A stretch of 64,000 nt of DNA from positions 682,001 to 746,000 of the forward strand of contig NZ_AQXQ01000012.1 of NCBI RefSeq assembly GCF_000376865.1. Reading direction: 5' to 3'. Below the pieces are notes generated by a model, which had not been told where the DNA came from, searched no databases, and saw only the letters and a program-made list of their open reading frames with translations. Both the position numbers and the translations under genes were made by a program. The stretch comes from Thioalkalivibrio sp. ALJ7 (GTDB lineage Bacteria > Pseudomonadota > Gammaproteobacteria > Ectothiorhodospirales > Ectothiorhodospiraceae). Within the stretch, counting starts at the first letter, position 1, and every line of letters starts with the position of its first letter. Positions 55,703 through 64,000 of this stretch are shown piece after piece.

Positions 55703-56191
55703 TCAAGGCTTGATGTAGGTATAGCCGCCACGTTGCAGCCGCGTCAGCTCGCCGATCCCGTTTGAAACCACATCCTCCTTGGCCACCTCGTACAGATCAC
55801 TGCGCGAGAGACCGCGCGAGTCCAGCGTGTTACCACAGACCAGAAAGCGCACGTCCTGCAGCTTGAGGGTATTCACGGTGCTACGCAGGTCAGGGTCCTC
55901 CGCAGCGTGCTGCAAAAGACTGACGCCACTGCCGTGGGTCAGCACCTTGATCTCCAGCACCACATCTGCAGGGCTACCGTCGATATGGTTCTGGAGATTG
56001 CGCAGGGCATTCAGGTGCAGCTCCGGGTCATCGGTGTTGATGTGATAGACCACCCGCAGCGGCTCGTCGGCCGCCGGTGCCTCGGAAACGGTTCCAAACA
56101 GCAGCGCGGTGGCACCACCAGCCACCAGCATCAACAAGAACGCCCCGGCCAGAAGCCAGCCGGGGCGCGCAACGCGTAGATAAGGGATCAT
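55703..56191 (-). CDS. Membrane-anchored DsrE-like protein
   Basis: A 162-residue protein with one N-terminal membrane segment (WLLAGAFLLMLVAGGATALLF in part) and a DsrE/YchN-like domain from about residue 45: LRVVYHINTDDPELHLNALR, EIKVLTHGSGVSLLQ, VRFLVCGNTLDSRGLS and the C-terminal GGYTYIKP. A single conserved Cys (in FLVCGNTL) is in the position of the reactive Cys of DsrE-like proteins. The domain is clearly paralogous to the C-terminal half of the anti-sigma factor at 56214, 22 bp upstream on the same strand. Probably periplasmic. Not a classical cytoplasmic DsrE of DsrEFH. Confidence 0.78.
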   Translation of the reverse strand: MIPYLRVARPGWLLAGAFLLMLVAGGATALLFGTVSEAPAADEPLRVVYHINTDDPELHLNALRNLQNHIDGSPADVVLEIKVLTHGSGVSLLQHAAEDPDLRSTVNTLKLQDVRFLVCGNTLDSRGLSRSDLYEVAKEDVVSNGIGELTRLQRGGYTYIKP

Positions 56192-56213: not shown

Positions 56214-57032
56214 TCAGACCTTGATGTAGATCCAGCCCTCGGCCTGACGGCGGGCCGCCTCGGCGACGCCGGAATCGATCAGCTCGGCCTGCGGCAGGAT
56301 GTCGACCGTCTTGCCCTCCTCGCGCGCCAGACGGTTAAGGGTCTGGGCACAGGCGGTGAACCGCAGCGTGGGATACGCCTCCGCCATGCTGGCCACCCGT
56401 TCCGGGTAGGGCGCGCTGTCGGCGCGCAGCAGATTCATTGCATTGTTGTGCACCACGACCTGCACGTTCAAGTCGCGCCCGACCGTCGCCGCCTCTCGGT
56501 ACATGCTCTCGATATCATCCAGGAGCTCTGCCATCGCACGGGTGTCGCCCTCATTGATGTGCAGCAAAATCTGGTCGGTCTCGGTGGCCGAAAACACCTG
56601 CTGCGGGGCCGCGGCGCCACCCGCCGTATCCCGACTGGCAGCGACCTGCGCCAGGGCGCCGGCATCCTGCCCATTCGCGGCCGAATGCTGGCCACTGAAG
56701 AACCCGGCATCGCGGGTGATCTCGTACCCGCCCAGCGAACCCACGACCAGTGCCAGGACGCCGGCGGCGACGGACGGGAACCAGGCCGAACGGCCCCCGC
56801 GCGAGAGACGGCAGCGACCGGTGCTGGCGCGCCCGGCCGGGACGTCCTCGTAGGCCATATTGACCAGCTCCTTGAGCTGGTGCATGTCACAGACTTCCCG
56901 GCTCAGGTGCTCACTGGAGGAAATCGTCTTCAGGGTGTGCAGGCGGTCCTCGGGGGAGAATTCACCATCCACGAAGGCGTTGAGAATCTCCTCGCTAGGC
57001 CGGTTCTTTGCACTCAGTCGTTCATTCGACAT
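56214..57032 (-). CDS. Transmembrane anti-sigma factor fused to a DsrE-like domain
   Basis: A 272-residue protein with three parts. (1) A cytoplasmic anti-sigma domain (residues about 10-60: PSEEILNAFVDGEFSPEDRL, then SREVCDMHQLKELV, resembling the zinc anti-sigma fold but with an incomplete Cys/His set). (2) One membrane segment (about 84-104, WFPSVAAGVLALVVGSLGGY). (3) A C-terminal DsrE-like domain (about 145-272) with QILLHINEGDTRAMAELL, VQVVVHNNAMNLL, LRFTACAQTL holding the conserved Cys, and the end GWIYIKV. It overlaps the sigma gene by 11 bp, the normal arrangement for a sigma/anti-sigma pair. The external domain presumably senses a thiol or sulfur signal and releases the sigma factor; this is inference. 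Confidence 0.8.
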   Translation of the reverse strand: MSNERLSAKNRPSEEILNAFVDGEFSPEDRLHTLKTISSSEHLSREVCDMHQLKELVNMAYEDVPAGRASTGRCRLSRGGRSAWFPSVAAGVLALVVGSLGGYEITRDAGFFSGQHSAANGQDAGALAQVAASRDTAGGAAAPQQVFSATETDQILLHINEGDTRAMAELLDDIESMYREAATVGRDLNVQVVVHNNAMNLLRADSAPYPERVASMAEAYPTLRFTACAQTLNRLAREEGKTVDILPQAELIDSGVAEAARRQAEGWIYIKV

Positions 57033-57585
57033 GCCGATTCCTCACTACCTTGAGATAGGGTGTATCGGCCGCTTTCCCCGTGTCGGCCTGCTGCTCCAGC
57101 AGCACCTTTTTCAACTGTGCCCGAGCCCGGCTCAGGCGACTCATCACCGTGCCGATGGGTACATCCAGCACCTCCGAGACCTCGGAATAGGCAAAGCCTT
57201 CCAGGTCCACCAGCGCGACCACCTGCCGGTGATCGGTACTCAGTTCGGCCATCGCCCGGTGGACATCCGCGATCATGCGGTTGCGTTCAGTTTGCTGCTC
57301 CGGGCAGTCCTCGCAGGGCAGCTCCATGCTGTCCACATCCACCGTGTCCTTCTGCCGCCGCCCCCAGTCCCGGTAGCAGTTGGTCATAATCCGAAACACC
57401 CAGGCCTTCAGGGCGTTCTCGTCTTGCAACGACTTCAGCCGGGTCAGGGCCTTCATCATTGCCTCCTGCACCAGATCGTCCGCCAGCGCCGCGTCATGAC
57501 ACCACGCAAATGCCATGCGATACATCTGGGGCCGCAGGTCGCACACCTTCTGACGCAGCCTGCGCTGCGCGAACCAGGTCGCCAT
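57022..57585 (-). CDS. ECF-family RNA polymerase sigma factor
   Basis: A 187-residue group IV sigma factor. Region 2 (about residues 15-80) has DAALADDLVQEAMMKALTRL and NALKAWVFRIMTNCYRDWGR; region 4 (about 120-170) has LSTDHRQVVALVDLEGFAYS, EVSEVLDVPIGTVMSRLSRA. ATG 57585 (MATWFAQRRLRQKV) has a GGAGG ribosome site 10 bp upstream and is preferred to a longer frame. The co-encoded anti-sigma overlaps its end. A GGAAT-N17-CGTCC promoter-like element upstream suggests autoregulation. Confidence 0.92.
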   Translation of the reverse strand: MATWFAQRRLRQKVCDLRPQMYRMAFAWCHDAALADDLVQEAMMKALTRLKSLQDENALKAWVFRIMTNCYRDWGRRQKDTVDVDSMELPCEDCPEQQTERNRMIADVHRAMAELSTDHRQVVALVDLEGFAYSEVSEVLDVPIGTVMSRLSRARAQLKKVLLEQQADTGKAADTPYLKVVRNRHVE

Positions 57586-57645
57586 GTTGTTGCTTCCTCC
57601 ATCCGCAGGCCGTACGTGCGGCCTTGCTTGTTCTTGTACCCTGTA

Positions 57646-57672
57646 GGACGCTACCGGGCGGCGGGCTATTCC
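57646..57672 (-). promoter_or_regulatory. Candidate ECF-type promoter of the sigma operon
   Basis: On the minus strand a GGAAT -35-like element (57668-57672) is followed after 17 bp by CGTCC (57646-57650). Autoregulated ECF promoters commonly show GGAAC-N16/17-CGTC-like elements. It lies 60 bp upstream of the sigma ATG; a small GGCCG/CGGCC hairpin (57608-57623) lies in the predicted leader. Confidence 0.45.
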
Positions 57673-57727
57673 GGTCCGGTCGTTCATATGAGTCGCTCAC
57701 CCTCGACTCCTGCGCTCAGGATACCCA

Positions 57728-59665: not shown

Positions 59666-60676
59666 GTGACCACGATAACCGAATACTTTGAACTGCCCGA
59701 CGGCTTCCTCGAGGCTACGCCCACCACTTTGCACCAGTGCGTACCCGGCCCGGCACTGATCCACCTGGAAGGCCAGCGCGAGCCGGCCGTGGCCGTGGTC
59801 CTGTTGTTGCACGGCAACGAGCCGGTGGGCCTGCACGCCGTCCAGCAGCTCCTGCGTCAGTACACCGGGCGGCCGCTACCTCGGGCGCTCACCCTGATCG
59901 TGGGCAACCCGCAGGCCGCGGCGCTCAATCAGCGGCACCTGGACCATCAGCCCGACTTCAACCGCATCTGGCCGGGGACCGAGCAGGGCGGCTCGCCCGA
60001 GGCCGACCTCTTTGCCGAACTCTGCCGACGTCTGGAGGGGCGCGGCCTGTTCGCCGCGATCGACCTGCACAACAACACCGGGCGCAATCCGCATTACGCC
60101 TGCATCAACCGTCTGGATGCACCATTCCTGCACCTGGCCGCGCTGTTCGGACGTACGGTGGTGTACTTCACCCGACCCCGCGGGGTCGCCTCCATGGCGC
60201 TGGCGCGCCTCGGGCCGTCCGTCACGCTGGAATGCGGCCATCCTGAGGACGCGGCCGGCGTGGATCACGCCCGTGAGATGATTGATGCCGTGCTGCACTT
60301 GGACCATTTCGCCGAAGAGCCGCCCCGGAAAGGCGCCATCGAGATCTTCCACACGGTGGCCCAGGTTCGGGTTCGGGCGGGACTACAGGCGGGACTGGAT
60401 GCGCAGCACCACGTGCGCCTGGAGCCCGACCTGGATGGCCTGAACTTCCAGTTACTGCCTGCCGGCTCGCGCCTGGTCAACGTCCACGCAGACGCCCGGG
60501 ATCCGCTGATCGCGATCGCAGAGGACGGCTCCGAGGTCACCGACGAGTATCTGGAACGTACTGGCCAGGAGATCCGACTCAAGCGCCAGGCCATGCCGTC
60601 CATGCTCACGCTGGATACCCGCGTGATCGCCCAGGACTGCCTGTGCTACCTGATGGAGCCACTGACACTGCCCTGA
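59666..60676 (+). CDS. AstE/aspartoacylase-family zinc hydrolase
   Basis: A 336-residue M14-like zinc deacylase. Zinc ligands are in LLLHGNEPVGLHAV (H-x2-E) and AIDLHNNTGRNPHY (His); QPDFNRIWPG and the LECGHPED segment with the catalytic Glu fit succinylglutamate desuccinylase or aspartoacylase. It starts at GTG 59666. No other arginine-succinyltransferase pathway genes are nearby, so AstE proper is unlikely; partnership with the GCS2-like ligase suggests it cleaves an acyl-amino acid or peptide in that pathway. Confidence 0.82.
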   Translation: MTTITEYFELPDGFLEATPTTLHQCVPGPALIHLEGQREPAVAVVLLLHGNEPVGLHAVQQLLRQYTGRPLPRALTLIVGNPQAAALNQRHLDHQPDFNRIWPGTEQGGSPEADLFAELCRRLEGRGLFAAIDLHNNTGRNPHYACINRLDAPFLHLAALFGRTVVYFTRPRGVASMALARLGPSVTLECGHPEDAAGVDHAREMIDAVLHLDHFAEEPPRKGAIEIFHTVAQVRVRAGLQAGLDAQHHVRLEPDLDGLNFQLLPAGSRLVNVHADARDPLIAIAEDGSEVTDEYLERTGQEIRLKRQAMPSMLTLDTRVIAQDCLCYLMEPLTLP

Positions 60677-60690
60677 CCCGATACACCACC

Positions 60691-60716
60691 GCGGGCGTCT
60701 CGGCCAGGGCGCCCGC
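60691..60716. terminator. Hairpin between convergent genes
   Basis: A 7-bp GCGGGCG stem (60691-60697 with complement 60710-60716) and a 12-nt loop directly abut the stop of the tubulin-like gene. There is no T tract in either direction, so it is only a possible terminator. Confidence 0.35.
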
Positions 60717-62966
60717 CTACTTCTTGCTGCTGGTGCGGCGCTTCGGCGCGGATGTGGCTGTCTTGCCGGAGTCGTTCAGGCTGATGATCTGCGTCTTGCT
60801 GGTGCGATGACGGTAGATCTCGCGCAGATAGCGGATCGCCTGCTTCACGTTCTCGCGACTCAGGCGGATGTCGTTGATCGAGACAAAGCTCTTCTCGTTG
60901 CTGCACATCTCGCGATACTTCTTCTCGTACATCGGCTTGATCGCGTACCAATTGGTATCGAGGATGCGCGTCGGGTTTTCGTGCTCGTTGAGCATCTCGT
61001 CGATGCGGGCCTCGTCGAACTCTTCGGCCCGTATCAGCTCCAGCACCGCGTGATCCAGCGTGTCGTCAAAGCGCGTCTTGTCATTGGCGAAGCAGCGCTT
61101 GATGTAGGCGACAAACAGGGTCAGGAAGTCGTCCGACAGGCAGGGGCTCTTCACCACCAGAGTGGTCAACGAGAGGTTGGCCGAGGCACCGATCACCAGG
61201 GCGTAGCGCTTGAGCGTGGTATTCGGGAACAGGCCGTTCAGGTGCGACTTCAGCCGATTCAGGTCCATGTAGGACAGCTTGTAGTCCTTCGGTAGCGACA
61301 GGATCGTGACGATGGACGAGCAATTCTTGAAGAAATGCAGATCGCGCAGGTGCGTCGCGTCCATGTCCGATTCCTTGTACCCCTTCAGCGCCTCGCGATA
61401 ACGCGGGGCATCGATCGGCAGCAGGCTGATCCCCTCGATGGCCTCGGTCTGCTTGTTGAAGTGGGGCAGGTCGATGGAACGGAAGAACAGGTCGTCGATA
61501 TCCAGCGCAGTGCTCTTGGATGCCGCGTCCTCGCTGGTTGCCACCTCCGATTCCGCGTAGGCAACCGCAACCGGGCCGGCCAGGCTCATGAACAGGTCGT
61601 TGGCATCCAGGCGAATGGTTTCTCCGATATCCACCCCGGCACGCCGGAAATAGTCCTCGTCGTAGTCGGTGGTCACCGCCTGCGCGGTCAGGATGTTGAA
61701 GATCTGCTGGGAGATGTACTGGTTGGCATAGCGCTCCATCGCGTTCACGTCGACGTGACGGATGTTGCCGTCGTCGGTCTCCTCCGCGTAGCGCATGATG
61801 TCGTTGGAGATCAGCATCATCGCGTTCCACGGACGGATGCGATGCATCATGTCCTCGTCACGCGTCTCCTCGGCCTCGAAGTTGTAGGAGAAGTCCCATT
61901 CCTCCGCCAGGTACTTGCACAGCAGACGCCCCGCGTTGATGTGCAGCGCCTCGGACATCTCGACCCGGTTGTCCTGGATGTTCGGCAGGATGCAGATCCC
62001 CGCCGCGAAGATCGGCTCGAACACGAACGAGTGATCACGGTTGGCGGCTTCGCGCTTCTCCAGCTTGGGATCGAAGGTCTTGCGCATGTAGGAATACTGC
62101 TGCGCCAGCCCGAATTCGGAGGCCATGCCGGAGCCGGTGCCACCCCCTGCACTGAAGATGTAAAAGTACAGCCGCGACTGGTTCGCCTTGATCCCGCAGG
62201 AATCGATCAGATAGGAATGGATGAACTTCCAGTCCTCGTTGGCGAACTGGTCGGTGTCCTTGTTCAGGATGATGCGCGCCAGGTACTGGCCCAGGATGGG
62301 GGCATTACCCGCGCCGCCCGCATGCACCTCGGACAGGTCCATGATCTTCATCTTGTTGTAGTTGTCGATGAAGTTGTTCTGCCCCGCCCGGTTGGAGAAG
62401 CGAATGCGACCCTCGATGTCCTTGTCCAGATCGCCCAGCATCACCATCGGCTCGATCAGGAAGACCGGCTTCACCGCATTGGCCGGCGGCAGGTTCAGGC
62501 TCTTGCGGATCCAGCGCAGGGGGCGTCCTTCCTTTTCGCGCCCGCCCGCCTCTTCGTTATCCAACTCGCGCAGGTAATTGGAGCGTGCACTGTGCACGAG
62601 CGCAGCCACATCCAACGCGATGTTCGACCCGCAGCGGCCCACGCCAATCAGACACACCGACGGGAAGAATTGCTGCTTGTGCTCCTCCGACTGGCTGCCC
62701 TTGGTCAGGCGCGGGAATACCGAATTGCGCAGGTGATCAAGGTTCTCCAGGATGCGGTCGAGATCGCGCTCGGTGAAGTAGTGCGGTTCGCCACCCCGCT
62801 CGAGCTTGCCCTCCAGGACATTCGACCGGGCCGCGTTGCGCGGCTGCGTCGCGCGCGCGGCCCTTGATGGAGTGGGGCTCAGCGTCTCGATCTCCCCGCC
62901 CTCGGGCACCTCCGGCTCAGCCCGCACCTCGTGGTCCATGTTTTCGTTAGAATTGTTTGTCGGCAT
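60717..62966 (-). CDS. Divergent tubulin/FtsZ-superfamily GTPase, 749 residues
   Basis: Four nucleotide-site signatures of the tubulin/FtsZ fold occur in order: T1 GVGRCGSN (108-115), T4 GGGTGSG (274-280), a T6-like MMLISNDIMRY (383-393; FtsZ has VIPND), and a T7-like IRLDANDL (451-458; FtsZ has NLDFADV). Residues 1-60 look disordered, and the C-terminus (from about 720) is rich in Lys, Arg and Ser. At 749 residues it is about twice FtsZ length, so it is not FtsZ itself; it fits the poorly known prokaryotic tubulin-like families. ATG 62966 has an AGGAG site 9 bp upstream. GTP-dependent polymerisation is predicted from the intact T4 and T7 motifs. It is transcribed alone; no clear partner gene. 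Confidence 0.85.
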   Translation of the reverse strand: MPTNNSNENMDHEVRAEPEVPEGGEIETLSPTPSRAARATQPRNAARSNVLEGKLERGGEPHYFTERDLDRILENLDHLRNSVFPRLTKGSQSEEHKQQFFPSVCLIGVGRCGSNIALDVAALVHSARSNYLRELDNEEAGGREKEGRPLRWIRKSLNLPPANAVKPVFLIEPMVMLGDLDKDIEGRIRFSNRAGQNNFIDNYNKMKIMDLSEVHAGGAGNAPILGQYLARIILNKDTDQFANEDWKFIHSYLIDSCGIKANQSRLYFYIFSAGGGTGSGMASEFGLAQQYSYMRKTFDPKLEKREAANRDHSFVFEPIFAAGICILPNIQDNRVEMSEALHINAGRLLCKYLAEEWDFSYNFEAEETRDEDMMHRIRPWNAMMLISNDIMRYAEETDDGNIRHVDVNAMERYANQYISQQIFNILTAQAVTTDYDEDYFRRAGVDIGETIRLDANDLFMSLAGPVAVAYAESEVATSEDAASKSTALDIDDLFFRSIDLPHFNKQTEAIEGISLLPIDAPRYREALKGYKESDMDATHLRDLHFFKNCSSIVTILSLPKDYKLSYMDLNRLKSHLNGLFPNTTLKRYALVIGASANLSLTTLVVKSPCLSDDFLTLFVAYIKRCFANDKTRFDDTLDHAVLELIRAEEFDEARIDEMLNEHENPTRILDTNWYAIKPMYEKKYREMCSNEKSFVSINDIRLSRENVKQAIRYLREIYRHRTSKTQIISLNDSGKTATSAPKRRTSSKK

Positions 62967-63168
62967 GGTCAACGACTCCTGCAGTCCGAGCGGGCGGATA
63001 AGGACCAAAAAATGTGATGTAATTCCGTTCGTGCCCCGCACTTAAGCACGCGGGGGGGCACGTTTCAACCACGGGAAACACATCTAATGGTGCGAGGGGC
63101 GCCCATTCCGCCGGGAAGGGGCGGTCACACAAGGGCCAGCCGGGCGGCCAGCCGGGCAGAAGGGGGCG

Positions 63169-63378
63169 TCAGCCGTCGCGTTCGACGCGTTCCAACACCT
63201 GGGCAATATGGTCGCCCTTGCGGTAGTTCGGGAGGTCGCGTTGCATGTCGGCCAGGGCTTCTTCGCGCGCGGCCTCGGTGTCGTACCAGCGATAGGATTC
63301 CCAGTCGGGACCCAGCAGGTGCGGCATGGCCATGGTGCTGCCTTCTGGCAGACGGATGCGGATTCCGTATCGTTTCAT
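63169..63378 (-). CDS. Small conserved-looking protein of unknown function
   Basis: A 69-residue protein starting MKRYGIRIRLPEGSTMAMPH and containing WESYRWYDTEAAREEALADM. No signal peptide or metal-binding motif. A short strand-turn plus helix layout is likely. It lies between the tubulin-like gene and the dipeptidase gene on the same strand, 202 bp upstream of the former. An upstream in-frame start (63426) is possible but poorly supported. Confidence 0.55.
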   Translation of the reverse strand: MKRYGIRIRLPEGSTMAMPHLLGPDWESYRWYDTEAAREEALADMQRDLPNYRKGDHIAQVLERVERDG

Positions 63379-63500
63379 GGGACTCGTCCGAGATTGTTCG
63401 GGGGTGGCCCGCGTTGCGACACACAACGCTGGCCGGCGCGCAGTCTAGCCGAGGGTCTCGCAGGCGGCAATATGACACGCTCGGGTGCAATGTGTGACTA

Positions 63501-63530
63501 GAAAGACATGGATCAATCTACGCGCTCGCG
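63501..63530. repeat. Solo arm of the inverted-repeat family overlapping the dipeptidase 3' end
   Basis: Matches the left arm of copy B at 24 of 30 positions. It encodes the last residues (RERVD) and the stop of the dipeptidase gene on the minus strand, much as the frames in copies B and C end RERVH at their arms. Confidence 0.6.
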
Positions 63531-64000
63531 GTCGACCAAAAAATCGAAGTAGGTTTCAGGGAACGGCTCAGCAGCCAGGGTGAAATGCCACCACTCCTGA
63601 TCGTAAGGTTCGAAGCCGGCCTCCACCATCAGGCGCTGCAGCAGCATGCGATTGGCGCGTGGCTGGGGCGCAACATCGGCGCGAGGCCACGAGGTCGGAC
63701 TGAATCGATCGAAGCCCGTCCCCATATCCAGCTCTTCACCGGATTCGGCGTCGATCAGCGTCAGATCCACCGTCGACCCCCGGGAATGACTGGAGCGTTC
63801 AGCAATATAGCCCTGCTCGAACAAATCCTCCTTGGCGACATCCGGGTAGTACCGATCCTGCATCCGAGTGTCTTCGAGGTCCTCGGCCCAGCGCACGAAG
63901 TGCGCGACCGCCCGCTGCGGCCGGTAGCAGTCGAAGACCTTGAGACCCAGCCCAAACCCGGCCAGGCGCTCCTGCACCTGAGCCAGCGCCTTCGCCGCCG
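63513..64000 (-). CDS. D-alanyl-D-alanine dipeptidase (5' end outside window)
   Basis: The visible 162 residues belong to the VanX/DdpX (M15D) family. Zinc and catalytic residues are in SSHSRGSTVDLTLID (S-x-H-x6-D) and the C-terminal EWWHFTL (Glu and zinc His); DCYRPQRAVAHFVRWA is the conserved upstream segment. The frame is open to the window edge, so the N-terminus is cut off. The enzyme hydrolyses D-Ala-D-Ala, probably for peptidoglycan turnover rather than vancomycin resistance, since no vanHA genes are seen. Its last residues lie in a repeat arm. Confidence 0.9.
   Translation of the reverse strand, partial: AAKALAQVQERLAGFGLGLKVFDCYRPQRAVAHFVRWAEDLEDTRMQDRYYPDVAKEDLFEQGYIAERSSHSRGSTVDLTLIDAESGEELDMGTGFDRFSPTSWPRADVAPQPRANRMLLQRLMVEAGFEPYDQEWWHFTLAAEPFPETYFDFLVDRERVD

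Follow-up and report, generated by a model that had tools for sequence, protein, structure and literature searches.

A stand-alone tubulin/FtsZ-superfamily gene in Thioalkalivibrio sp. ALJ7, almost certainly a member of the FtsZ-like 2 family

The FtsZ-like 2 family (FtsZl2) was described by Makarova and Koonin in 2010, with PFL_1302 of Pseudomonas fluorescens Pf-5 as its type; it was found through a GGGTG(S/T)G motif and was limited to Proteobacteria (PMC2875224). Its members keep the T1, T4, T6, and T7 loops and helix H7, carry family-specific inserts between T1 and T4, and include a C-terminal region of approximately 300 amino acids without relatives, while they coexist with FtsZ and have no associated genes (PMC2875224). 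The same study saw no contextual clue for FtsZl2, proposed membrane remodelling for another new family, FtsZl1, and did not include Thioalkalivibrio among the species in its Figure 1 legend (PMC2875224). A 2023 survey of the superfamily put divergent FtsZ-like (Tubulin_2) sequences aside. Experimental work on FtsZl2 was not found in a literature search, and an occurrence of the name in PMC7327170 was a text match to FtsZL272E.

The window analyzed here is a stretch of 64,000 nucleotides from Thioalkalivibrio sp. ALJ7, where a 2250-bp frame on the minus strand (60717..62966) encodes an FtsZl2-type protein of 749 amino acids plus the stop. Its ATG at 62966 is preceded, 9 bases on the 5' side, by a ribosome-binding-site-like AGGAG (62976..62980, minus strand). 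The frame also offers an upstream GTG at 63041, but the spacing of the AGGAG fits the ATG. A search of GTDB contigs identified 559 homologous stretches that encode relatives of this protein, and among the matches listed the closest were named Thioalkalivibrio strains with 88-95% identity. Comparisons of the gene with four Thioalkalivibrio homologues gave dN/dS values of 0.06-0.13, and the gene is under strong purifying selection. Upstream of the start, a GC-rich inverted sequence (GTGCCCC...GGGGCAC, approximately 63026-63060) was observed, with a similar one in the closest strain and none outside the genus among the upstream regions compared. These regions were alike within a genus only and yielded no shared regulator motif, and no Rfam match was found within positions 60000-64000 of the window.

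The motifs of the superfamily were identified along the protein in their expected order, as had been claimed in the initial annotation for T1, T4, T6, and T7. The T1 loop GVGRCGSN comprises residues 108-115 (62622..62645, minus strand, as are all features of the protein below), and its GxGRCGSN form was present in 112/112 distinct homologues. The T3 loop GGAGNAPILG (residues 217-226; 62289..62318), a further motif absent from that earlier list, was aligned with GAGADPSVG of FtsZ and SGAGNNWAKG of tubulin. The T4 signature GGGTGSG occupies residues 274-280 (62127..62147), and T6 was located by motif scan and alignment as ISND at residues 386-389 (SND, 387-389, at 61800..61808). A candidate helix H7, YANQYISQQIFNILTAQ, was assigned by inspection to residues 413-429 (61680..61730; YANQYISQQIFNILTA being residues 413-428). 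T7, likewise assigned by inspection, reads IRLDANDL at residues 451-458 (RLDANDL, 452-458; 61593..61616). An unsupervised MAFFT alignment matched T1, T3, T4, and T6 with those of FtsZ, while its placement of T7 at LNIDDLF (residues 488-494) was rejected, as that segment comes after a variable loop and shows lower conservation, whereas RLDANDL is universal.

Conservation of these motifs was complete or nearly so: T1, T3, T4, T6, and the H7 segment ANQYISQQIFN were found in all 112 distinct homologues by motif scan, and T7 as [IV]RLDANDL was also found in each, 106 of them with IRLDANDL and the variant form reading VRLDANDL. In 200,000 shuffles of the window protein the GGGTG[ST]G pattern did not occur, nor did the whole motif series, which is not a product of chance. 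In the host genome, patterns coding for GGGTG[ST]G occurred four times, with one in FtsZ and one in the window gene. The other two (G000:C10:182970 and G000:C12:461835) are possibly chance matches.

While the order of the motifs held, the spacing, which had been called correct for a tubulin-fold GTPase, did not. The T1-T4, T4-T6, and T6-T7 distances are 166, 114, and 69 residues, compared to approximately 88, 60, and 47 in the FtsZ of the same genome, that is, 1.5-1.9 times longer because of inserts. At the N-terminus, a low-complexity tail (residues 1-60; 62787..62966) varied in the family alignment; the previously noted tail is real, and its length ranges from 34 to 73 amino acids across homologues. 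The basic C-terminal tail, in contrast, is not a family feature, as a net charge of at least +2 was found in only 16% of the homologues' tails. Downstream of T7, residues 459-749 had no family match above cut-off, and the alignment delimited a highly conserved C-terminal region of approximately 260 amino acids (residues 480-737; 60756..61529). Within it, residues 550-607 possibly represent S8-H9-S9-S10 of the FtsZ/tubulin C-terminal domain type, as judged by eye and from the MAFFT alignment.

The published traits of FtsZl2 that could be compared all fit the window protein, and nothing contradicted membership. These include the GGGTG(S/T)G motif with T1, T6, T7, and H7 in order (H7 and T7 by inspection), the lengthened T1-T4 interval, the roughly 300-residue C-terminal region without known matches, the coexistence with FtsZ in the own genome and in 15/15 carriers, and, in the lineages examined, the lack of associated genes. 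The restriction to Proteobacteria also agrees, as the 80 matches listed (of 559) were all Gammaproteobacteria by name, phyla beyond Proteobacteria being covered by a pattern scan of GTDB contigs only. Hence, the protein is almost certainly an FtsZl2 member, an assignment based on the published description, the host genus, and a motif scan rather than on an alignment to PFL_1302. In one 6.96-Mb genome of the Pseudomonas-type genus, the FtsZl2 gene lies at 1.46 Mb, presumably near the expected place of locus tag 1302. Because FtsZl2, with its hundreds of homologues, was described in Proteobacteria in 2010, it is no novelty in an organism of this type, for which the initial annotation had expected a new role, and the novelty of the present interpretation is only partial. 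What is new here is the distribution counts, the presence or absence of the one gene, the trees that point to its horizontal transfer, its co-occurrence with FtsZ, and the invariant arginine in T7.

The protein is distinct from the FtsZ of cell division, in agreement with the initial annotation: the 2.71-Mb host genome encodes a separate, single, normal FtsZ on another contig. Similarities to bacterial FtsZ include the T1, T3, T4, and T6 loops in order and the two T7 acids, as D454 and D457, whose retention in the window protein had been noted and which every member keeps, occupy by inspection the positions of D209 and D212 of FtsZ (E. coli numbering). Differences include the length (749 amino acids, compared to approximately 385-420 in FtsZ) and the C-terminal peptide of FtsZ (DIPAFLRxQAD), which is absent here. 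Additionally, the invariant R452 stands, by inspection, at the position of FtsZ N207, which is an asparagine in both FtsZ and tubulin; this replacement could alter or abolish hydrolysis.

In profile searches, the Pfam Tubulin family (PF00091) matched 18/18 members scanned, with a best E-value of 0.003, and Tubulin_2 (PF13809) matched 17/18, with a best E-value of 0.0047. The window protein itself remained under both gathering cut-offs: it scored 16.9 bits for PF00091 (cut-off 33), where the own FtsZ scores 172 bits, and 11.8 bits for PF13809 (cut-off 27). With the score under the PF00091 cut-off and no DIPAFLRxQAD, it does not belong to the division FtsZ class. Weak DUF6562 and Imm42 matches in the family scan were taken as chance. 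For NCBIfam, PADLOC, and PHROGs, no convincing family was found for the window protein (NCBIfam has no model), and sequence and profile searches of the PDB returned nothing relevant and no tubulin-fold chain.

The FtsZl1 family (Tubulin_2, PF13809) shares the GGGTG signature with FtsZl2, and the weak Pfam matches in 17 of the 18 members belong to this family. However, FtsZl1 has a coiled coil, no recognisable T6-H7, and operons with vWA and OmpA genes (PMC2875224). In the window protein, by contrast, T6-H7 is recognisable and the PF13809 score is under cut-off, while a vWA/OmpA operon was not seen.

In letters, the T1 (xCGxxI), T3 (GAGN), and T4 (GGGTGSGM) loops are closer to those of beta-tubulin than to those of FtsZ. 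For example, the xCGxNI form of T1 resembles the beta-tubulin QCGNQI more than the FtsZ GGGGGN. A local alignment with beta-tubulin (reference sequence confirmed against PDB 5gon_B) ran through T1, T3, and T4 with a z of 3.1, and 9 of 1000 shuffles scored as high; with T4 masked, z fell to 0.3 and was not significant. The corresponding local alignment with FtsZ was not significant (z of -0.3), and a profile-profile comparison with gammaproteobacterial FtsZ matched the T4 loop alone. The nearness of T1, T3, and T4 to beta-tubulin is thus a lead only, with an alignment score that depends on T4. No convincing similarity to beta-tubulin was found outside T1-T4, and the window protein differs from it by large inserts and another C-terminal half. 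AlphaFold2 gave no confident model, either for residues 56-738 (683 residues, 44-row alignment, mean pLDDT 39.4) or for the GTPase domain at residues 96-480 (71-row alignment, mean pLDDT 32.9). The underlying alignments were shallow (Neff 1.6), with a mean column identity of 72% and 87%, respectively, and contained little covariation because the FtsZl2 family is so conserved.

The occurrence of FtsZl2 varied among taxa. It was found in 195/299 genomes of the Pseudomonas-type genus (taken to be Pseudomonas) and 6/30 Thioalkalivibrio genomes, but in only 12/397 sampled genomes of the phylum and 2/369 of the class. In the family of G387, 11 of the 12 genomes had the gene, with one copy broken in G367 (C1, approximately 2486898-2489729), where frameshifts and a stretch of approximately 0.94 kb including a GDSL-hydrolase-like frame were observed; this copy indicates that the gene can be lost. 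Exactly one FtsZ was present in each of the 15 carrier genomes tested. Over 16 carrier genomes, FtsZl2 is more conserved than FtsZ, with a mean identity of 75% versus 69%.

In Thioalkalivibrio, a segment at 60670..63167 of the window, flanked by two conserved genes, is either there as a whole or missing as a whole (blastn to L151-L154), and it contains only the FtsZl2 gene and short flanks. The flanking genes are approximately 38 bp apart in four relatives without FtsZl2, and the mobile unit is therefore a single gene. At another Thioalkalivibrio site (L155, G793), approximately 150 bp rather than 38 bp separate the flanking genes, which may be the remnant of a lost FtsZl2 copy. The gene was described as standing alone, and indeed operon partners were not found; neighbours common to FtsZl2 loci did not extend beyond close kin in the lineages examined. 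The neighbour is aspartoacylase-like in the window and, by inspection, 3-hydroxyisobutyrate-dehydrogenase-like in Pseudomonas and pfkA-like in the family of G387.

Phylogenies of the two proteins from the same 16 carriers disagreed. The FtsZ tree grouped the Pseudomonadales together (support 100/98), whereas the FtsZl2 tree grouped Thioalkalivibrio with Marinobacter and Halomonadaceae (support 100/100). In AU tests, FtsZl2 rejected the Pseudomonadales grouping (p-AU 1.5e-4) and FtsZ rejected the Thioalkalivibrio grouping of the FtsZl2 tree (p 0.006); a larger tree had long branches flagged. The simplest reading of this disagreement is a horizontal transfer of FtsZl2 between the Thioalkalivibrio and the Marinobacter/Halomonadaceae lineages, in either direction.

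Taken together, the one-gene unit, the intact loops, the T7 acids, the coexistence with FtsZ, and the purifying selection point to an autonomous accessory GTPase that most likely acts as a filament. The explanation favoured with reasonable confidence is that this FtsZl2 member is a large soluble GTPase of the tubulin/FtsZ superfamily, encoded by a stand-alone accessory gene beside FtsZ and forming filaments; its tubulin fold, GTP binding, and polymerisation are those we infer from sequence. The intact T1, T3, T4, and T6 loops and the two T7 acids suggest the mechanism of the superfamily, where GTP would be bound in one subunit, the T7 loop of the next would complete the GTP site, and head-to-tail protofilaments would form and turn over by hydrolysis. 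The protein would act without dedicated partners, as a single gene makes up the transferred unit and none of its neighbours recurs across lineages, and a non-essential cytoplasmic or cell-shape filament would be the default guess for its role. A more ambitious version, held tentatively, sees a self-sufficient mobile one-gene cytoskeleton of Gammaproteobacteria, with loops nearer to tubulin, an arginine in T7, turnover rules of its own, and a role new to bacteria.

Among the alternatives, a tubulin-fold GTP-binding scaffold or switch, which would form no dynamic filaments and would have its function in the inserts and the C-terminal region, is rather unlikely. Such a protein would account for the lengthening of every inter-loop distance by inserts, the invariance of R452, and the conservation of approximately 260 C-terminal residues without a known match. 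However, every member has both T7 acids, and T1, T3, T4, and T6 are intact, while non-polymerising relatives in the superfamily usually lose the T7 residues. It is improbable that the protein modulates division by co-polymerising with FtsZ or by being recruited to the Z ring: although FtsZ accompanied it in every carrier tested, its gene was not linked to the division cluster in the lineages examined, the FtsZ-type C-terminal peptide (DIPAFLRKQAD) is absent, and most genomes of the phylum do without FtsZl2. A component of a membrane-remodelling machine, as proposed for FtsZl1 in the same paper (PMC2875224), is very unlikely for FtsZl2, since its neighbours include no recurring gene of the vWA, kinase, GTPase, or OmpA-like type and that paper saw no context for this family. 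A DNA-segregating filament of the plasmid or phage type (TubZ, PhuZ), which the patchy and horizontally transferred distribution might recall, is extremely unlikely, as there were no matches in 72,556 plasmids, 50,697 phages, or, by peptide patterns, viral contigs, no adjacent DNA-binding or other partner gene travels along, and no centromere or iteron-type repeats were found by the gene; like the vWA-type remodelling, it is disfavoured by the absence of partners.

The favoured autonomous filament concerns a superfamily protein that roughly two thirds of the sampled Pseudomonas-type genomes encode and that apparently has had no assigned function since 2010. As FtsZl2 travels as one gene between conserved neighbours, deleting it cleanly and transplanting it alone should both be easy, and its role is directly testable in laboratory strains of Pseudomonas.

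Elsewhere in the window, an ECF sigma factor (57022-57687, minus strand) with the Pfam sigma-70 r2 and r4 domains is followed by a protein of 272 amino acids, the two together covering 56214-57687. The latter had no Pfam match at an E-value of 0.01. The next gene encodes a DsrE-family protein (55703-56191, minus strand; PF02635). The start of the 272-residue protein is anti-sigma-like and its C-terminal half resembles this DsrE-family neighbour, which suggests, though only as a suggestion, an anti-sigma/DsrE fusion.
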